Part shown: positions 31,164 to 49,178 of the stretch, one piece after another
Layout: every line of letters begins with the position of its first letter
Numbering within the stretch: position 1 is the first letter of the stretch
Assembly: GCF_023845585.1 (NCBI RefSeq)
Contig: NZ_JAMQHS010000007.1
Coordinates: 124,001 to 188,000 of the forward strand
From: Clostridium sp. CMCC3677
GTDB taxonomy: Bacteria; Bacillota; Clostridia; Clostridiales; Clostridiaceae
Direction: 5' to 3'
DNA length: 64,000 bases
Program-made: the position numbers and the translations under genes
The notes under the pieces: generated by a model
Database searches by the model: none
What the model was told of the DNA's origin: nothing
Seen by the model: the letters and a program-made list of their open reading frames with translations, nothing else

Positions 31164-32723
31164 CTATGCTTCCCCCTTCATCACCTTAACTAACTTATTA
31201 ATCATATCCAAAAGTTCTTCATTGTTAGCATTTTTAATATCATCAGTATTGATACACTTTGATGCAGCTGCATACTGATCAGGGCTCAAGCTTCCACATT
31301 GATTTTGTGTATGGTGACAATTATTTTCTGTTTTAATGTGATTAAAAGTTGGATCGTTAGAAGCTAATGTTGCACAATCCTTTAAACCATATGCAACTCT
31401 CTTGATGTTAATCAAGTGCATTGGGGTAACATTTTCAGAAACTGAACTACCGCCCCAAGTACCACAACCTAGTGTAAATGATGGTATAAGTCCTGTACTT
31501 GCACCTGTTCCACCTTGGCTACCACCAGTATTAACTAAAATACGTGATGCTGGCTTTCTAGCAAATTTCATTACTATATCTCTATCTTCAGTATGAATAC
31601 TCATTGTATGACCTATTCCATTTTGAAGTAATTCAATACTTAATTCACATGCTTCATGCCAATCCTTTACTGTATAGAATGCAAGTACTGTTGTAAGTTT
31701 TTCAAAAGATAATGGATAACCTTCACCAACACCCTTTTGTTCTCCTATAAGTACCTTTGTATCTTGTGGAATAGAAATTCCTGCTGAACTCGCTATAACT
31801 TGTGGAGATCTACCTACAAATTTAGCATTCATGCTATGCCCATTCTTAAACAACAGATTACAAACTTTATCTGTTTCTTCTGCTGTCATGAAATATCCGC
31901 CTTGTTTCTTTAATTCTGCAACTACTTCATCATGATTATATTCTTCACATATAATAGATTGTTCTGATGCACAGATTGTACCATTATCAAATGTTTTACT
32001 TGCAATAATATTTCTTATAGCTTTTTCAACATTTGCACTTCTTTCTATATATGCTGGAGAGTTTCCTGCCCCTACTCCAAGTGCTGGTTTTCCTGAACTA
32101 TAAGCAGCTTTTACCATTCCTGGACCACCTGTTGCTATTATTATAGCAACTTCTTTACTCTTCATTAATTCATTTGTAGCTCCAATTGTTGGAGTAGAAA
32201 CACAACCAATAATATTTTCTGGAGCTCCAGCTTCTATAGCTGCCTCATTCATCAATTTAGCTGCTTTTATTGTACATTGTGCTGCTGATGGATGTGGTGA
32301 AAATACTATTGCGTTACGAGATTTTATAGCAATCATTGCTTTAAAAATAGCTGTAGATGTTGGATTTGTTGAAGGTACTATTCCCATTACTAATCCAACT
32401 GGTTCAGCAAGTTCTATTAACTTATTAGCCTCATCTTCTTTAATAACACCAATAGTTTTCATATCTTTAATTGAATCATATAATATAGTAGATGCCATAT
32501 GATTCTTATAAGTTTTATCTTCAACCTTACCAAAACCAGTTTCTTCTACTGCCATTTGTGCTAAGCAAACAGCATTTTCTTCTGCAACCTTAACCATGTT
32601 GCATAAAATTTTATCAATTTGTTCTTCAGTATAATCAGCAATTTTTTCTGCCGCAACTTTTCCTAAGCGAGCAAGGTTTCTTGCTTCTTGTATTGAACAC
32701 AAATCTCTATCAAAATTCTCCAT
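31164..32723 (-). CDS. cutF: CoA-acylating acetaldehyde dehydrogenase
   Basis: 519-residue aldehyde dehydrogenase converting acetaldehyde from choline cleavage into acetyl-CoA with NAD+. Catalytic Cys is present in SKTFDNGTICASEQSI; IIATGGPGMVKAAYSSGKPA and the conserved STNPTSTAIFKAMIAIKSRN are typical of EutE/PduP/AdhE-type enzymes. A C-terminal extension after about 470 ends in the amphipathic helix NNEELLDMINKLVKVMKG, a probable encapsulation peptide as reported for glycyl-radical compartments. It is the catalytically intact partner of the CutB-like paralogue in this operon. Confidence 0.94.
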   Translation of the reverse strand: MENFDRDLCSIQEARNLARLGKVAAEKIADYTEEQIDKILCNMVKVAEENAVCLAQMAVEETGFGKVEDKTYKNHMASTILYDSIKDMKTIGVIKEDEANKLIELAEPVGLVMGIVPSTNPTSTAIFKAMIAIKSRNAIVFSPHPSAAQCTIKAAKLMNEAAIEAGAPENIIGCVSTPTIGATNELMKSKEVAIIIATGGPGMVKAAYSSGKPALGVGAGNSPAYIERSANVEKAIRNIIASKTFDNGTICASEQSIICEEYNHDEVVAELKKQGGYFMTAEETDKVCNLLFKNGHSMNAKFVGRSPQVIASSAGISIPQDTKVLIGEQKGVGEGYPLSFEKLTTVLAFYTVKDWHEACELSIELLQNGIGHTMSIHTEDRDIVMKFARKPASRILVNTGGSQGGTGASTGLIPSFTLGCGTWGGSSVSENVTPMHLINIKRVAYGLKDCATLASNDPTFNHIKTENNCHHTQNQCGSLSPDQYAAASKCINTDDIKNANNEELLDMINKLVKVMKGEA

Positions 32724-32761: not shown

Positions 32762-33520
32762 TTACTCATAATATGCTCTAAATTTTGTTATTAATAGCTT
32801 TTTACTTGCTTTAGAAATTTTTCCTTCCGTAACTTTAAAATCTTTGTATTGACGAGCTAATTCTCTAAGTTTTGCTACTTTAACATTAGATAGTATCTTA
32901 AGAGTTTTTTCTATTCCACTTTCATTTACTAAATTATCTACAGTAGCTTTTTGTAAATTGTTTAAATCAATTTTTGAATCATTAGAATGTTCCTCTTTTA
33001 ACTTCTTAGGTAATGAATGATCTATTGTTAAATTTATTTTTTCAGACTTAGTATCTATACAGTCAATATTTTCATCTTTTTCTAAATTCGTTTCCTCAGA
33101 ATCATTGATTATACAATCAATGGTTTCTATTGTTTCTTCTTTTTTAGAAATTTCATTCTTAATAACCTCAACTTCAACAACCTCATTTAGGTTTTCACAA
33201 ATCTCATTTTCAGATTTAGACGAAACTTCTAACTTTTTTAAAGAACTTTTTATTCCAATTATATTATCTAATTCATCATGAGGACGAGGTATCACATGTT
33301 CTGAAATCAACAATTTACTATCTAGTTTTTTTACAGCTGCAACGCCAGCCTCTACAGCTGCTTTTACTGCGCCTACATCTCCAGTTACTGCGATTGAAAC
33401 AAGGCCTCCACCTACATAAGTTTTCTCCAAAATGCTAACATCTGCTGACTTAAGCATTGTGTCTGCACCTTCAATAGCTGCCAGTAATCCTCTTGTTTCT
33501 ATTAACCCAAGTGCTTGCAT
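32762..33520 (-). CDS. BMC-H shell protein with long C-terminal extension
   Basis: 252-residue protein: residues 1-90 are a standard BMC domain (ALGLIETRGLLAAIEGADTM, pore loop VGGGL); about 95-185 is an acidic, Lys/Glu/Asn-rich low-complexity linker; about 195-252 is a folded basic tail with KVAKLRELARQYKDFKV and a KASKKLLITKFRAYYE end. The tail is reminiscent of Rho-N/SAP-like or the EutK-type nucleic-acid-binding ends, by eye only. It could tether the shell to cargo, DNA or RNA, or to the cell interior. Positioned between EutQ-like and cutF. Confidence 0.88.
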   Translation of the reverse strand: MQALGLIETRGLLAAIEGADTMLKSADVSILEKTYVGGGLVSIAVTGDVGAVKAAVEAGVAAVKKLDSKLLISEHVIPRPHDELDNIIGIKSSLKKLEVSSKSENEICENLNEVVEVEVIKNEISKKEETIETIDCIINDSEETNLEKDENIDCIDTKSEKINLTIDHSLPKKLKEEHSNDSKIDLNNLQKATVDNLVNESGIEKTLKILSNVKVAKLRELARQYKDFKVTEGKISKASKKLLITKFRAYYE

Positions 33521-36735: not shown

Positions 36736-37581
36736 TTATTCGATAATTTCTTTTGTACAGCTAAGAGCTATCCCTAATGGAGTAACGAACATAGGATTGT
36801 GGGGTTTATGAGTGTATATTCCTGTTTGTTTTTCTATAATTTTTTCTATACCTTCTAAGCAGCATGTACCACCTACTAAAGATATTTCCTTAACATCATG
36901 ACCATCTATATGCTTATTTATGATTGCAGCAACTTTTTCAACTACAGGCTTTAATATAGGCAATAATTCTTTATGCTTTTCACTGTCTCTTTTGTATTTA
37001 TCAGCGTCTCCAAAAGACATACCATATGCTCCTGAAATAACTAATGAAAAATGAGTTCCACCTGTAGGTTCATCAGCAACATATACAACTTTTCCATTTT
37101 TCAAAATAGAAATACCTGTTGTTCCACCACCAATATCTACAACTGCACCATTTTCTATTTTAAGTACTGCATTTGCAGCTGTAGGTTCATCTAATAGACT
37201 TGTTAATTCAAATCCAGCAGCTTGTACTACATTCTTAATTGCCCCTGAATCCAAAGCATCTGTTCCTGGTGGAATTGCTGCTGCTGCATAAAGTAATTCT
37301 GCACCTAATTTTTCCTCAAGTTCCTGCTTTAATTCTCTAACAATTCTTACTGCTCCAATATAATCAACAATCATACCGTCACGGACTACATCTGCATATC
37401 TGTATACACCTGCAACTGGTTTATAGTTTTCATCTAAAACTGCTAATACTATACAGGCAGTTCCAAGGTCAACACCTGTGTAATATGTAGATGTTTCACT
37501 TACAATGGTTTTATTTATAACTTCTTCAAAATCATGAACAAGATTATCACAGTATTCAAAATTTATGCTTTTCTCTGACAT
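36736..37581 (-). CDS. EutJ-like actin-fold chaperone
   Basis: 281-residue Hsp70/actin-like ATPase of the EutJ family, thought to aid microcompartment enzyme assembly. Phosphate-binding motifs GVDLGTACIVLAVLD and VVDIGGGTTGISIL are present, with ISLVGGTCCLEG near the end. I set the start to the ATG at 37581, preceded by GGAGGGGG at 6 nt, rather than an upstream ATG (37605); this gives a 19-base overlap with the EutT-like gene. Confidence 0.88.
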   Translation of the reverse strand: MSEKSINFEYCDNLVHDFEEVINKTIVSETSTYYTGVDLGTACIVLAVLDENYKPVAGVYRYADVVRDGMIVDYIGAVRIVRELKQELEEKLGAELLYAAAAIPPGTDALDSGAIKNVVQAAGFELTSLLDEPTAANAVLKIENGAVVDIGGGTTGISILKNGKVVYVADEPTGGTHFSLVISGAYGMSFGDADKYKRDSEKHKELLPILKPVVEKVAAIINKHIDGHDVKEISLVGGTCCLEGIEKIIEKQTGIYTHKPHNPMFVTPLGIALSCTKEIIE

Positions 37582-38234
37582 TTTCCCCCTCCAATAGTTA
37601 GACAAATCATTTGAGATAATGAATTAATAATTGCGTTAATATTTTTTATAATTTGATTTCCTACGTTATGATTGTCTCCATATACTTCAAACACAATTGG
37701 TTCTATTTCACGAATAGCACAACGTAGTGCATTTAACTTTAAAATTTCGTTGCTTTTTTCAAGTTGCATATGAAATTCTGTTATTTCACAACAATCATCA
37801 ATATCATCACAAAAATTCTCTGAATTTATTCCAGTACATTCTTTATGGCAAGGTTGTTCAATTGTACTTTTTCCTTCTATAAAATTTCTAATGTTTGAAA
37901 TTCTTTTTTCTAAATTAATAATACTTTGTGCTAAAATAATATCTTCCTTTATAATTTCACTACTAGTAACAAGGAATAATGCCTCTATAGATTTTAGTTT
38001 GAAGCAAATCTTCTTATTAAAATTTTTATTTTCCTTTGGCAATGCTTCTGATTGCTTTACTATAGGAATTTTATTATTTTTGCAAGAAGCATCATCCCAC
38101 ATCTTTATACCTTTATCTGACAGATATTGTCTTGCTCCAGGCGTAAGACGCTCTCCTTGATCTAATTCGTAAACACTAAAAGGTTCTTTCTTATATAAGG
38201 ATCGCAAATACTCTTCAGTAATAAATTTCATCAT
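37563..38234 (-). CDS. EutT-like protein (corrinoid adenosyltransferase family, degenerate)
   Basis: 223-residue protein. The N-terminus MKFITEEYLRSLY..RLTPGARQYLSDKGI matches the start of EutT, and the C-terminal helices with LNALRCAIREIE align with its adenosyltransferase part. In place of the EutT metal motif HxCCxxC it has HKECTG and DDCC segments. CutC does not use B12, so this is probably a repurposed homologue, perhaps for assembly or metal handling. Follows EutP, overlaps EutJ. Assignment by eye, moderately sure. Confidence 0.7.
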   Translation of the reverse strand: MMKFITEEYLRSLYKKEPFSVYELDQGERLTPGARQYLSDKGIKMWDDASCKNNKIPIVKQSEALPKENKNFNKKICFKLKSIEALFLVTSSEIIKEDIILAQSIINLEKRISNIRNFIEGKSTIEQPCHKECTGINSENFCDDIDDCCEITEFHMQLEKSNEILKLNALRCAIREIEPIVFEVYGDNHNVGNQIIKNINAIINSLSQMICLTIGGGKCQRKA

Positions 38235-39079: not shown

Positions 39080-40033
39080 TTAGTGACGAATCACTTTAAC
39101 TGTTAAATCATATTTCTTAATCCAGCTTTCAATTTTATCTAAATCTTCATTATTTAAGCTTGGATCTCCTTCAATAGGATATTCAATTCCTAGTTGATTA
39201 TATTTATTTACCCCCATCTTATGATAAGGAAGCAAATCAATGCCTTTGAAGTTTTTATAATCCTTAAACTGAATTAAAAATTTCATAACATTTTCAATAT
39301 CTTCATTACTATCATTTACTCCTTTTAATAAAGGCATTCGAATCTTAACATTATATTTACGACGAATAAGTTCTTTTAAATTCTCTAAAATTTGTTCATT
39401 TCTCACTCCAGTTAATTGGAAGTGCCTGTCAGAATCAATATGCTTTATATCAAATAGGAACAAATCTGTGAACTCAGCAACCTTTAGCACTGATTCTAGC
39501 TTTGCATAACCGCAAGTTTCAATTGCAGTGTTTATTCCCTCTTGTTTACATGCCATAAGCAGGTTGCAAGCAGCTTCTGGTTGCATTAAAACTTCACCAC
39601 CACCTAATGTAACACCACCACCGGAAATATCATAAAATGCTCTATCTTCTTCTATAATCTCTAAAAGTTCAGAAATAGTTTTTACCTGTCCTACTATAGA
39701 TAATGAAGATTCAAGACAAGCATCAACACATTTCCCACATCCAAGGCAATCAATATTACGATTCACTTCGTGTTTTAGACTTTCCTTTGAAATAGTATGT
39801 ATTCCTACTGGACAAGCATCAACACAAGCACCACAATTAACACATGAATTATTTTTAAACATTACCCTATATTTTTTTATCATTCCTTCAGGATTAGCAC
39901 ACCATTTACAACGTAAAGGGCATCCTTGGAAAAATATAAGAGTTCTTATTCCTGGTCCATCATACATATTGTATTTTTGTATATTAAAAATTGTTGCTTT
40001 TCGTTCAATCATTCCTAAATTCATATTCCCCAT
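39080..40033 (-). CDS. cutD: Choline TMA-lyase activating enzyme (radical SAM)
   Basis: 317-residue glycyl-radical enzyme activase. Radical SAM motif CPLRCKWC (Cx3CxxC) binds the cluster that cleaves SAM; two ferredoxin-type clusters follow in CVNCGACVDACP and CLGCGKCVDACL (about 60-115). It abstracts a hydrogen from the CutC glycine. The start at 40033 has GGAG 10 nt upstream; a TTG three codons earlier is less likely. Separated from cutC by 167 bp containing a hairpin. Confidence 0.94.
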   Translation of the reverse strand: MGNMNLGMIERKATIFNIQKYNMYDGPGIRTLIFFQGCPLRCKWCANPEGMIKKYRVMFKNNSCVNCGACVDACPVGIHTISKESLKHEVNRNIDCLGCGKCVDACLESSLSIVGQVKTISELLEIIEEDRAFYDISGGGVTLGGGEVLMQPEAACNLLMACKQEGINTAIETCGYAKLESVLKVAEFTDLFLFDIKHIDSDRHFQLTGVRNEQILENLKELIRRKYNVKIRMPLLKGVNDSNEDIENVMKFLIQFKDYKNFKGIDLLPYHKMGVNKYNQLGIEYPIEGDPSLNNEDLDKIESWIKKYDLTVKVIRH

Positions 40034-40094
40034 AGTATTCAATCTCCAGTTTTATTTATCTTGATTTTAAATAATGTTTTAAATGTTCCTTGCA

Positions 40095-40200: not shown

Positions 40201-42756
40201 TTAAAAGTGTGTAAGCATAGTTCTACTAATAATTTCATCTTGAACATCTTTGCATAATTCAACGAAGAATGCACTATATCCAGCAACACGTACAATTAAA
40301 TCACGATATTGTTCTGGATGTTTTTGCGCTTCAATTAACGTATCATTATCTAGGTAGTTAAACTGAACTTCACCAAGACCAAGAACACATGCACTACGCA
40401 ATAAAGTAATAATGCCATCTTCTCCTTCTTTGGTATCTAATAATCCAGATATAAGCTTAAAGTTATGAACCATACCTATATTCATACTGTCACAAGACAT
40501 TTTAGAAACTGATTTTATAATTGCAGTAGGGCCCTTATAGTCAGATCCTTGTGATGGACTTATACCATCAGATAACGGCATCCATGCTCTACGTCCGTTT
40601 GCTGTTGCTCCAGTTAACTGACCAAATGGAGTGTTATTAGATATTGATAAAGTACCATGACTAAGTACTGAATATAATGTCTTAAATTTACGATGTTCTA
40701 GTTCTGTAAAATTGATTAAATCAGCAGCAATATAATCTGCATAATCATCATCATTACCATACTTAGGTGCCTCTAAACAATCTTTTCTAAGTTTTTCATA
40801 TCCAACAAAATCAGCTTTTAATGCTTCATTTAATTCTTGCAATGTATATTTCTTTTCTTCAAATACTAACTTTTTAATAGCTGCCATAGAATCTGTATAA
40901 GTTGCAAGTCCACTCCATATTACTCCCGGCCCAAAGTTATACATAGCTCCGCCAGCTTCAACACCTCTACCATTATCCATACAACCTTCATACATAATAG
41001 ACATAAGAGGTTTTGGTGCAAGTTCTTTATGAACACGTTGTGAAATTACAGTAGCAACACTTGTCCACTTAGTAATGTATTTTATTTGTTCCTTAACAGC
41101 ACTTTCAAATTCCTCATAATTTTTAAAACTATTTATATCTCCCATATTAGGGCAAACTTGTTTTTCATACCAAAGAGGAATACCATTGTTAAGTACAAGT
41201 TCTATACATATAGGCCATTGAGTATATGCTGTAGATGTCCATTGATATAATCTTCCTGATTTTTGAGGTTCAACACATCCCATTAAGCAGTAATCTCTTG
41301 CATCCTCTATAGAAACACCTTTAGCAAGCATCATTTTTATATGCACATCATCAAAGTGACAAGCTGGGAATCCCATACCTGCACGAATTACATCCACAAT
41401 TTTCTTAAGGTACTTTTGTGGTGATTGGTTATGAATACGACAAGCTAATGATGGTTGATAAATTTTAACATGACGAACTGCATCCATAAGCAGATAAGTC
41501 AATTCATTTGTAGCATCTCGTCCTTGTCTATCAACACCACCAACACACATATTGACAAATGGTTGATAACCTGCGAAGAATTTAGAACCACCTTCACTTG
41601 TAATCCACATCATTTCAGACATTTTAATAAGCATACATCCTGATAATTCAAATGCCTCAAAATCATTCATACGACCACTTTCAATATCATTTTTATAATA
41701 TTCATACATGTATTGGTCAACACGTCCTATAGACATACCTGTTTGATTTTCTTCAACTACTAGTAAAGATTCAATAGTCCAAACAGCTTGAATCGCTTCC
41801 CAGAATGTACTTGGTTTATGTGCTGGTACTCTTGCATTAATTTCAGATATTTTTTGTAATTCTGCTTTACGCTTAGGATTTGTTTCTTTTTCGGCTAATT
41901 CAGCAGCATATTTAGATAAACGCTTAGCATAAATCATAACACCTTCAGTAGTATCAATAATTGCTTTATAGAAATAGATTTTTTCTATATGTTCTGGATT
42001 TTCATAATCAAGTTTTTCAAGATGTTCTTTTGCTTCTAATTGAATATCTAGCATACCCTTTTTCATTAGAATTACATCATATCCTGGATTTGAATCTCCT
42101 CCACCATTAATAGCATGATATGAACAATCTGAAACAAATGACTCTCCTGAAAGCTCCCATACTCCTGCTTCACGATATTGATTTTCACAATATTCATCAA
42201 CAGATTTACCTGCCCAATATGGGAACAATTCTTCACGCATAATCTTCTTATCTTCTTCAGAAATATAGAATGGATCTTGCGCTCTTGTACCTATAGTATC
42301 TATTTCATCAACCATCCATCTCCATGCAATATCTGGAGAAAAAGCGCCCGCACGAGGTGCACCACAAGGAGCTCCTACAATCAATTCATTATCTTGAATT
42401 ACTAATGGTGCAGTTTCACAGCAATATTTAAAACATTTAGCACGTAATAAAATCTTAGGCATGCCTGGATTTTCTTTAGCTATTTTAGTAATTGCCCTAG
42501 CACGATAAGTAGTTATTGATGGAACTTGTTTCAAATAATTTTCTTTTAATTTTAATAAACGTTGTGTTATTCCATCTGGAATTTTATCGCCTTCAGTACA
42601 TACTACATGTTCTAAAACAGGTTCTTCTTTTGTGATTTCTTTTGAAACACCCTCAAATATCTTCATTAAACATTCACGTTCTTCAGCAGACATGTTTTGA
42701 GTGGCTTCTACAAATTTGTTTGAAAATTCACGAATATCCAATTTTTTACCTCTCAT
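40201..42756 (-). CDS. cutC: Choline trimethylamine-lyase (glycyl radical enzyme)
   Basis: 851-residue glycyl-radical enzyme cleaving choline to trimethylamine and acetaldehyde. Key residues are all present and sit exactly 5 positions beyond those of the Desulfovibrio alaskensis enzyme as I recall them: Tyr213 and Asp221 ([10 protein letters not shown]), Phe400, Cys494 and Glu496 in GCVEPQ, and the radical Gly826 in RVAGYS. Length fits the short type I class. The N-terminal about 40 residues, with [16 protein letters not shown], may be an encapsulation helix. Activated by the CutD encoded just downstream; preceded by the CutB-like paralogue. Confidence 0.97.
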
Positions 42757-42796: not shown

Positions 42797-44287
42797 TTAT
42801 TTTAAGTCTTTAATAACTTCTTTTAAGATATTTTGTAGAAATTCTACGTTATCTATGTCACATACTTCTGATTTTTTTTCAATGTTATCACATAAACCTT
42901 TATCTGATAACACTGAATCAATAATCTCATTTGTTTTACGTACTCCATATCCAACCTTACGAATATATATTAAGTTCATTGGAGAAACGTTATCGGATGT
43001 CATTCCATGACCTGCTGATCCACTTCCTAACGTCATTGAAGGAAACAAATTAGTTGTCGCTCCCATACTTCCAAAAGAACCTGGAGTATTTACAAGTACT
43101 CTACCAACTGGTTTTTTTAAAGCAAATTGACGAATAACTTCTTCATCTTTTGAATGAATTATTAGTGTATGGCCATGTCTTTCACTAAGTAACAATTCAA
43201 TACACTTTTCACAAGCATGCATCCAATCATCCTCAATATAGTAAGATAAAACTGGACAAAGCTTTTCTCTAGAATAAGGATTGCCTTTTGACACATATTT
43301 TTGTTCTGAAATCAAAACCTTTACATCATTTGATACAATAAATCCTGCTCTTTTAGCTAAGTATTGAGGCGATTTGCCAACCACTTCAAAATCAACGCTT
43401 CCATCTGTATGATAAAAGATAGATCCAAGCTTTTCAGATTCATTTGCATCCATAAAGTAAGCTCCATTTTTTTGTAACTCTTTTTTCACTTCAGATGCAA
43501 TTGGACTATCTACAACTATCGACTGTTCAGCTGCAGAAACCACACCATTGTCAAATATCTTACTATCAATAATATCTTTTACAGCTTGTCTTATATCAGC
43601 TGTACGTTCTATAAAAGCAGGTCCATTACCTGTACCACCATAAATTACTGGTTTGCCTGATTTATATGATTCCTTTAACAAACCTGGAACTCCTGTGTTC
43701 ATTATTAAAGAAGTATCTCTATGATTCATTAATTCAGCAGTTCCACTAGGTGTTACATTATGGAGATATGCAAGTGCTCCTTCTGGTAAACCATATCCTT
43801 CAGCAGCTCTAATTAAAATATCAAGAGTTTTACTCATAGTATTTTTCGCTCTTGGATGAGGAGAAAATATAATAGCATTTCCTGATTTAATTGCAATTAA
43901 TGCTTTATATATTGTAGTAGAGACAGGACTAGTTGATGGGCAAAATGCTATGATTACACCCATAGGTACACCTACATCCATAGTCTTATTCTCTTTATCT
44001 TCATTAATTATACCTACACATTTCATGCCCTTTAATCTATTAAACAAATACTTGCAAACAAAACGATTTTTTATACATTTATCTTCCCATTTACCATAAT
44101 CTGTTTCATCACTAGACATCTTAGCAAGTTCTGAAATATGCTTTTTAATTTCCTCTATCATCCGTTCAACGATCTCATCAAGCTTTTCCTGTGAGAATGT
44201 TGCTAATTTTCTTTGTGCTTCTCGAGCATTTTCAACAAGAATTCGTGATTCTTGTATGGAGAGTAAATCATTATCAATAGTACTCAT
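42797..44287 (-). CDS. cutB: Aldehyde dehydrogenase paralogue lacking the catalytic Cys
   Basis: 496-residue homologue of CutF. N-terminal SIQESRILVENAREAQRKLA and the internal PSTSPVSTTIYKALIAIKSG are conserved, but the catalytic segment reads KIFDNGVVSAAEQS, with Ser (codon TCT) in place of the Cys in FDNGTICASEQ of CutF. It should not acylate CoA by the normal route. A C-terminal amphipathic helix (VEFLQNILKEVIKDL) resembles an encapsulation peptide. It may be structural, organising the enzyme core with CutC, or hydrolytic. Symbol by position next to cutC. Confidence 0.88.
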   Translation of the reverse strand: MSTIDNDLLSIQESRILVENAREAQRKLATFSQEKLDEIVERMIEEIKKHISELAKMSSDETDYGKWEDKCIKNRFVCKYLFNRLKGMKCVGIINEDKENKTMDVGVPMGVIIAFCPSTSPVSTTIYKALIAIKSGNAIIFSPHPRAKNTMSKTLDILIRAAEGYGLPEGALAYLHNVTPSGTAELMNHRDTSLIMNTGVPGLLKESYKSGKPVIYGGTGNGPAFIERTADIRQAVKDIIDSKIFDNGVVSAAEQSIVVDSPIASEVKKELQKNGAYFMDANESEKLGSIFYHTDGSVDFEVVGKSPQYLAKRAGFIVSNDVKVLISEQKYVSKGNPYSREKLCPVLSYYIEDDWMHACEKCIELLLSERHGHTLIIHSKDEEVIRQFALKKPVGRVLVNTPGSFGSMGATTNLFPSMTLGSGSAGHGMTSDNVSPMNLIYIRKVGYGVRKTNEIIDSVLSDKGLCDNIEKKSEVCDIDNVEFLQNILKEVIKDLK

Positions 44288-44362: not shown

Positions 44363-44668
44363 TTATGGAAGTAAATTTTCAATCTTATAACGCGCAATAA
44401 TCTTTTCAAGATCCTGATGTGGACTTGCAATAACAACTGAGCTATAAACATTACCATTTTCCATATCATTAACAGCTTTTACGCCAGCTTCTACTGCCGC
44501 TTTACAGGCTCCTACATCTCCACGAACCAATACAGAAATGTAACCTGATGCAACATTTTCATAGCCTATAAGTTCAACATCTGCTGCCTTGCACATAGCA
44601 TCGGCTGCTTCTAAAACAAAAACTAGACCAAAAGTTTCAATTAATCCTAAAGCTTGATATCTTGCCAT
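44363..44668 (-). CDS. BMC-H hexameric shell protein
   Basis: 101-residue BMC-domain protein (ALGLIETFGLVFVLEAADAM; pore loop VASGY; VLVRGDVGACKAAVEAGVKA). The pore residues differ from the other BMC-H proteins here, suggesting a different permeability. Second shell gene of the operon. Confidence 0.95.
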   Translation of the reverse strand: MARYQALGLIETFGLVFVLEAADAMCKAADVELIGYENVASGYISVLVRGDVGACKAAVEAGVKAVNDMENGNVYSSVVIASPHQDLEKIIARYKIENLLP

Positions 44669-44694: not shown

Positions 44695-44991
44695 TTATGA
44701 ATCAACATCATGTACAGAAACAATATCTCCAACTTCTCTAATAGGACGTGGCATAACATTTTTTGCTGTTAATTTACCTATAGCAGCAGCAGCTTCAGCA
44801 CCTGCTTCTACAGCTGATGTAACTGCTGCTACATCACCCTTAATCATTATTGTAACAAGGGTTGATCCTACATTTTCATATGAAATCAACTCCACATTTG
44901 CAGCCTTTAACATTTTGTCTGCCGCTTCAATTGCTGGAACCATTCCTAATGTTTCTACAAGACCTAAAGCTTCTTCACCATAATATCTCAT
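44695..44991 (-). CDS. BMC-H hexameric shell protein
   Basis: 98-residue BMC-domain protein (ALGLVETLGMVPAIEAADKM; pore loop VGSTL; IMIKGDVAAVTSAVEAGAEA). C-terminal tail PRPIREVGDIVSVHDVDS. First shell gene after the transporter and small protein. Confidence 0.95.
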   Translation of the reverse strand: MRYYGEEALGLVETLGMVPAIEAADKMLKAANVELISYENVGSTLVTIMIKGDVAAVTSAVEAGAEAAAAIGKLTAKNVMPRPIREVGDIVSVHDVDS

Positions 44992-45015: not shown

Positions 45016-45282
45016 TTAACCTTTAATATATTTATTAATTGTTTCTGCTCCTTCTTTGTGTGCATGATAATAAACCCTTAATTCACCATCATTGTCCAAA
45101 TCAAATCTTGTTTCTTCAAGAAGTCCATTAGCTTCAGCTGTCATTAATGCTGTTAATACATCTTTCTTGTTAAGAGCTTTAAAATTGCCATACTCATCTT
45201 TTAATGCATCTATAACATCATCAGTACACGCTTCTTTAACTTTAGTGAAATATTTTAGAATTGCATAATTAAGTGGTTTCAT
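45016..45282 (-). CDS. Small winged-helix-like protein of cut locus
   Basis: 88-residue protein: NYAILKYFTKVKEACTDDVI through LNKKDVLTALMTAEANGLLE suggests a small helix-rich winged-helix fold, followed by a beta hairpin FDLDNDGELRVYYHA. Its start overlaps the stop of the transporter gene by one base, so it is cotranslated. Could be a local regulator or an adaptor; function unknown. Confidence 0.75.
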   Translation of the reverse strand: MKPLNYAILKYFTKVKEACTDDVIDALKDEYGNFKALNKKDVLTALMTAEANGLLEETRFDLDNDGELRVYYHAHKEGAETINKYIKG

Positions 45283-48029: not shown

Positions 48030-49178
48030 CTACTTGTTTCCTGTAACTTTATCTAAAATATTTAATAAATCTTCTTTTGTTGCTTCTCTAGGATTTGCAG
48101 TTGTACAAATATCCTTCATAGCGGCATTTAAAATATCTTCCTTAACTTGATCTAATAAACTTATGTCAGCTCCCTGTTCTTTTAATGTAGTAGGAATCAT
48201 TAATTTTTTTTGTAACTCAACAATATGTCTAATTAGATTATTAACTCCAATATTTACAGTAGATGCATGTAAATTTAATATTTTAGCAATTCTTTGATAT
48301 TTTTTAGCAGCTACTTCATACTCTTTATTATAAAAATTGTTATTAAGTTTAGCATTATATTCTATTATATGAGGCAGTAGTATTGCATTACTTCTTCCAT
48401 GAGATATATGTAGTTTACCACCTAATGCATGTGCTAAACTATGAGTAATACCAAGTCCTGCTGAATTAAACGCCATACCTGCTAAGCAAGATGCATTATG
48501 GATTTTTTCCCTTGCTAAAAGATTACCACCATTAGAAAAAGCTTCTGGTAAAAATCTAAAAGCTAAAGAAATCGCTTTTTCCGCCAAAGCATCTGAAAAA
48601 TCATTAGCATTTTTTGAAACATAAGCTTCAATAGCATGGGTAATTACATCCATTCCTGTATCTGCTGTAATAACTGGAGGTACAGAAGTTACAAGTTCAG
48701 GATCAAGTATTGCTACCATAGGAAGAAGTGCTTTATCTGCTAACGCATATTTTAATCCTTCTTGCTTGTTAGTTATTACTGCATATTCAGTTACTTCAGA
48801 TCCTGTACCGCTTGTAGTTGGTATTGCAAAACATTCTTCTATTTCATTGACTGATCCTAAAATTTGTTTTGAATACTCTCTTATTGCCTTAGCCGCATCA
48901 ATTGATGAGCCACCACCAAGGGCTATCATAATTTGTGCATTACAAACTTGTAATGTTTGAATTCCAGCAGCAATGATTTCTACTGGAGGATCAGGTATTA
49001 TATCACTAAATATTGTTACCTGACAATCAACTAACTTTTCCTGTACTTTTGCAGCCATTCCTGAAGATTCTATGAATTTATCACATACAATCAATACTCT
49101 TTTATTTTTTATTTCACTTAATCTACTTAAAGAACCTTTTCCAAAATAAACATTTGTACTAATACTAAATTCTTTCAT
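48030..49178 (-). CDS. cutO: Iron-type alcohol dehydrogenase (CutO/PduQ-like)
   Basis: 382-residue group III alcohol dehydrogenase reducing acetaldehyde to ethanol and regenerating NAD+ for CutF. NAD-binding [12 protein letters not shown] (about 88-99) and [11 protein letters not shown]; metal-binding Asp/His residues in [20 protein letters not shown] and [14 protein letters not shown]. Close in type to PduQ and EutG. It has its own terminator and lies upstream of the regulator, so it is a separate unit on the same strand; cut membership is from context. Confidence 0.88.

Follow-up and report, generated by a model that had tools for sequence, protein, structure and literature searches.

CutB, an aldehyde dehydrogenase-like protein encoded between the shell genes and the choline lyase gene of a choline-degradation locus in Clostridium sp. 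CMCC3677, has lost the catalytic cysteine of its family. This residue is gone in every relative examined, yet the gene is kept in nearly every choline-degrading compartment, so that the protein probably helps to build or organise the compartment instead of catalysing a reaction. The explanation that we favour is that CutB serves the GRM1 choline microcompartment as a dedicated subunit without catalysis, probably with a structural part in core assembly. Throughout, the window refers to the whole 64,000-nucleotide stretch analysed.

The original prediction, made from the sequence of the window alone, had placed a Ser at the catalytic Cys of this reading frame. The codon TCT (Ser251) and the Cys of the paralogue CutF bear this out. 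Ser251 sits within IFDNGVVSAAEQS (the surrounding segment is also given as FDNGVVSAAEQS), the CutF segment with the catalytic Cys is FDNGTICASEQS, and CutB lacks the catalytic Cys of the FDNGxxC motif of acylating acetaldehyde dehydrogenases. Among 141 distinct CutB sequences from Bacillota and Desulfobacterota, residue 251 is Ser in 82, Pro in 48, Ala in 8 and Thr in 3, and never Cys, whereas all 45 aligned CutF/EutE paralogues have Cys at the equivalent position. The Ser is therefore no lesion or sequencing error confined to one strain and the feature is real; what is conserved across cut loci is the absence of Cys, not the Ser itself. The defect is already known. Axen et al. 2014 found that every GRM1 (choline) locus with two aldehyde dehydrogenases has one with Cys replaced by Ser or Pro, for which they suggested a scaffolding or regulatory role (PMC4207490), and Sutter et al. 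2021 listed the second copy of GRM1A and GRM1B as putatively inactive (PMC8217296); the main point of the original prediction had thus been made before. Added here are the census of residue 251, with Ala and Thr as further replacements, the changed NAD turn, the dependence on a shell-bearing locus and the natural absences of the gene.

Table 1. Genes of the cut locus and features of CutB, with positions in the window.
Feature	Position	Strand	Basis
cutB, aldehyde dehydrogenase-fold pseudoenzyme, 496 aa	42797..44287	(-)	ATG start, AGGAGAG ribosome-binding site
cutC, choline trimethylamine-lyase, 40 bp downstream of cutB	40201..42756	(-)	TIGR04394 1641.9 bits, cut-off 1050
cutD, glycyl radical activating enzyme	39080..40042	(-)	position and conserved order
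cutF, intact acylating aldehyde dehydrogenase	31164..32723	(-)	TIGR02518 score
BMC-H-like shell protein gene, immediately upstream of cutB	44363..44668	(-)	similarity to known shell proteins
Second shell protein gene, upstream	44695..44991	(-)	locus order
Codon TCT, Ser251 replacing the catalytic Cys	43535..43537	(-)	read from codons, alignment
NAD-binding turn Thr-Gly-Val (198-200); TGG in active paralogues	43688..43696	(-)	alignment
Tyr216 for a Gly invariant in paralogues	43640..43642	(-)	alignment
Ser120 at the oxyanion-hole Asn position	43928..43930	(-)	alignment
CutB signature E352..W355..A358-C359-x-K361-C362-x-E364 and following helix	43181..43234	(-)	alignment, tree
Oligomerisation segment 1, residues 91-108	43964..44017	(-)	enriched in CutB-specific positions jointly with segment 2
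Oligomerisation segment 2, residues 435-450	42938..42985	(-)	as for segment 1
C-terminal amphipathic helix 479-495, encapsulation-peptide-like	42803..42853	(-)	prediction

Family, locus and occurrence of cutB

CutB, 44% identical to CutF, scores 604 bits against the TIGR02518 equivalog model, just under the cut-off of 620.1 bits for acylating acetaldehyde dehydrogenases; CutF reaches 825.2 bits. It is the second aldehyde dehydrogenase beside an intact, Cys-bearing one, in a locus that contains cutC, cutD and BMC shell genes like the GRM1 loci with an inactive copy, and the intact paralogue is encoded in cut loci wherever the flank is long enough. Orthologues came from whole-genome searches, which covered 99 related genomes, 399 from the phylum and 297 from Desulfovibrionia (the class to which a Halodesulfovibrio genome belongs), and from scanning GTDB contigs. 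In the phylogenetic tree they form one clade apart from CutF/EutE (SH-aLRT 100), with long branches in a few lineages, and cutB evolves under purifying selection (median dN/dS 0.14 over 20 pairs; 0.11 for cutF and 0.08 for cutC).

Gene order is fixed: in 140 of 141 loci cutB has a shell gene no more than 1.5 kb upstream, and in 138 it has cutC downstream, the exceptions to the shell-cutB-cutC order being at contig ends or at the ends of the stretch examined. RNA family and promoter scans near cutB gave nothing useful. Several other elements of these loci deserve mention. An alcohol dehydrogenase-like gene resembling that at 48030-49178 of the window lies between cutB and cutC in several lineages (L117, L122, L124, L107, L111 and L099). 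The interval between the gene of an EamA-like transporter and the shell genes encodes an 88-aa protein with no Pfam match (45016-45282, minus strand). In most of the cut loci inspected this small protein occurs along with the transporter, and in some the pair of the two is repeated. A conserved 223-aa locus protein (37563-38234, minus strand) also has no Pfam match, and its C. ljungdahlii counterpart is listed as EutT. Finally, a shell protein with a single BMC domain (32762-33520, minus strand) carries a long charged C-terminal extension of ~170 residues.

The distribution of cutB largely follows the compartment. Among the 99 related genomes, cutC exceeded the curated cut-off in 12, and the same 12 encode CutB. 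In the phylum sample, 14 genomes had cutC above the cut-off and 11 of them CutB; the other three are one with a hyperdivergent copy (G190) and two of a single Bacillota genus with none (G154 and G193). Full-scoring cutC occurred in 54 Desulfovibrionia genomes, 50 of them with CutB, which was found in all 50 genomes with the highest-scoring cutC versus none of the four with stand-alone cutCD. These four have cutC-cutD only, with no shell genes or cutF within ~9 kb on either side; the CutC proteins of their loci (L184-L187) are 76-79% identical to the compartment form. What CutB is linked to is thus a locus with shell genes, rather than cutC or choline cleavage alone. Of the three roles in the original prediction (a scaffold tying CutC to the shell, an esterase-like enzyme or an allosteric partner of CutF), the first is best supported by this linkage, and the second loses ground on the residue 251 data below.

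Two of the departures from this pattern are natural knock-outs. In G154 and G193 the shell locus is complete and includes both cutC and cutF, yet cutB is absent from the whole genome, so that the role of CutB is not strictly required; the gene is missing between the second shell gene and cutC (L125 8401-8759 and L127 8215-8574). The CutC of this genus has four unusual positions against a control median of three, without any co-variation signal. In the third departure, the G190 copy (L126 7075-8580), CutB is 44% identical on a branch of length about 3.5, with Pro251 and an NAD turn decayed to SCA; its ACEKCIELLL helix is intact, and its AF2 model is confident (pLDDT 89.8) and has the same order of elements as CutB.

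Conserved surfaces and a possible place in the enzyme core

One helix motif of CutB shows no variation. E352, W355, A358, C359, K361, C362 and E364 are invariant in 141 of 141 sequences, and the patterns of the GTDB contig scan ([NH]ACEKCIE and TTNLFP[AS][LMF]T) favour the ACEKC motif, which was rechecked and holds in 24 copies from the whole-genome search and the Desulfovibrionia set. Positions 352, 359, 361, 362 and 364 show zero changes on the CutB tree, and the AF2 model places a helix at residues 355-369. The model as a whole has the aldehyde dehydrogenase fold (pLDDT 90.7), with 3k9d as its best PDB match (TM 0.88 by query and 0.96 by target), in agreement with the original prediction that the rest of the fold is kept. 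The encapsulation-like C-terminal helix proposed at the same time also appears: it is predicted at 479-495 after a disordered linker, as in encapsulated cargo, and the tail exceeds its shuffled versions in amphipathicity (median z 2.3 in 100 CutB orthologues). The two oligomerisation segments contain 8 of the 38 CutB-specific positions where 2.9 are expected (p 0.004), a weak enrichment as the domain boundaries were transferred from one homologue and phylogeny was ignored.

These features suggest how a structural subunit might have arisen. One lineage of EutE/CutF-type dehydrogenases would have lost its catalytic Cys once and lost or altered its oxyanion Asn and NAD-binding turn, while keeping the fold, the oligomerisation surfaces and the C-terminal encapsulation-like helix. 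Oligomeric CutB would then bind the shell through this helix, use CutB-specific surfaces, namely helix 352-369 and the oligomerisation segments, to hold CutC and/or CutF, and so help to nucleate or order the enzyme core. The assembly role and the partners named here are those that we infer. In the related GRM2 system, larger assemblies form when CutF cross-links full-length CutC (PMC6971018), which offers a precedent, by analogy, for a dehydrogenase as core cross-linker.

The same surfaces could serve regulation. CutB might form mixed oligomers with CutF and tune its activity or its share of acetaldehyde, having no catalysis of its own; such regulation is a documented role of pseudoenzymes (PMC10650815), and it would fit the shared fold and conserved family residues, the CutB-specific residues enriched in the oligomerisation segments and the intact paralogue of the locus. 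However, CutB is tied to cutC and the shell genes and not to the position of cutF, and the changes at its oligomerisation positions could just as well be a sign that mixing with CutF has been lost. We consider a regulatory subunit unlikely, although it is the best of the alternatives to a structural one.

Altered and retained active-site positions

Besides the Cys, several positions that are invariant in the 45 paralogues differ in CutB. Residue 200, in the NAD-binding turn, is V in 136 of the 141 sequences, I in 2, A in 2 and R in 1, and never the G of all paralogues; residue 216, again G in all paralogues, is Y in 125, C in 8 and F in 6; and residue 120, at the oxyanion-hole position where all paralogues have N, is S in 114, N in 21 (mostly one early-branching Bacillota group) and G in 6. 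With TGV and Ser120, the CutB of the window has neither the TGG turn nor the oxyanion Asn of acylating acetaldehyde dehydrogenases. By alignment, residue 200 corresponds to Gly218 of Cphy1178, in the loop beside the NAD adenine; the NAD and CoA contacts of this enzyme are published, and its TGG-turn loop shifts against the adenine (PMC4762007). CutB therefore seems likely to bind NAD poorly, judging from these residues. In S. aureus BADH, replacement of Gly234 by Ser raised NAD affinity (PMC4427200); since our own alignment makes this residue homologous to position 200, the bulk of Val, rather than the change itself, would be expected to hinder binding. Only individual positions are striking: taken as a whole, the active-site pocket was not significantly enriched in lost or in CutB-specific residues (p 0.13 and 0.19). 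From its sequence, CutB would appear to have no enzymatic activity.

Other positions are retained. Glu341, His373 and Thr374 persist in most CutB proteins (for Glu341, a MAFFT gap was realigned by eye, with EELMMP of Cphy1178 matching REKLCP of CutB), and 137 of 141 retain H144, the counterpart of the CoA-phosphate-contacting His162 in Cphy1178. Some ligand binding could therefore persist, and CutB might sense or store CoA or aldehyde in the compartment. We regard this as improbable, as the adenine loop and the oxyanion position have been altered, Gln replaces His373 in 11 of 141 copies and in the most divergent copy not even TG is left of the turn.

An active enzyme with a new nucleophile, either an esterase-like Ser251 or a relocated Cys, is still harder to sustain. 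Ser is indeed the commonest residue at 251, with His373 and Glu341 remaining in most copies, but 59 of 141 sequences have Pro, Ala or Thr, and residue 251 switched at least 16 times inside the CutB clade (on a tree built without those columns), so that a Ser nucleophile is not what selection keeps and an esterase-like activity does not hold as the conserved function. One of the Pro251 proteins comes from a species in which the gene is choline-induced: in C. ljungdahlii grown on choline, the aldehyde dehydrogenase gene between the choline lyase gene and two shell genes is upregulated (log2 7.2) and polyhedral bodies appear (PMC12016505). Pro251 was read in the gene beside the choline lyase gene of the ERI-2 genome and, by extrapolation from it, would also be found in cutB of DSM 13528, presumably CLJU_RS19625. 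Nor does another Cys seem to rescue activity: C359 is shared with active paralogues, C362 belongs to the same helix and C344 is missing in 45 of 141 sequences. C344 had been a candidate relocated Cys, invariant in the first 17 sequences and present in 100 of 104, and was dropped once the Desulfovibrionia copies were added. Lastly, the reading of cutB as a decaying duplicate or a sequencing error, suggested by the lost catalytic residue, the genus without the gene and the few long branches, is refuted by orthologues in 141 loci of two phyla, dN/dS of about 0.14, fixed gene order and induction together with the locus.

Related systems and consequences for the choline compartment

CutB agrees with the second aldehyde dehydrogenase of GRM1A and GRM1B (PMC4207490, PMC8217296) in locus type, intact companion and replacement of Cys by Ser or Pro; nothing contradicts this identity, and Ala and Thr are found here in addition. 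With CutF/EutE (TIGR02518; PDB 3k9d) it shares the fold, the length and the C-terminal encapsulation-like helix. Unlike them, it lacks the catalytic Cys and mostly the oxyanion Asn, has TGV for TGG and Y216-G217 for G-V, and carries the conserved ACEKCxEL helix motif. Human ALDH16A1, of a different subfamily and domain layout, is not known to have a microcompartment or an encapsulation peptide. It is likewise an aldehyde dehydrogenase fold without catalytic residues, kept for a non-catalytic role (PMC10650815).

The N-terminal glycyl-radical-like extension of GRM2 CutC is, like CutB, a non-catalytic, enzyme-like part tied to core assembly, but the spare domain is fused to CutC (PMC6325248, PMC6971018); the Klebsiella GRM2 locus, as described, has one aldehyde dehydrogenase (CutF) and no CutB. 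A tentative extension, which we think rather doubtful, is that GRM1 and GRM2 build their cores with unrelated non-catalytic spares, a cofactor-blind CutB in one and a degenerate glycyl-radical domain fused to CutC in the other, with CutB tying CutC to the shell and to CutF through its ACEKC and C-terminal helices.

CutB is currently annotated and counted as a dehydrogenase. Thus, Price et al. 2014 placed Dde_3283 among acetaldehyde-processing genes (PMC4215793), and this is presumably CutB because it is numbered next to cutC, Dde_3282. Should CutB prove structural, it would belong in pathway models and rebuilt choline compartments as a component of the assembly and not among the enzymes. The conserved gene order, the dependence on the shell and the natural absences provide a clear set of strains for testing the role of a pseudoenzyme in a bacterial organelle.
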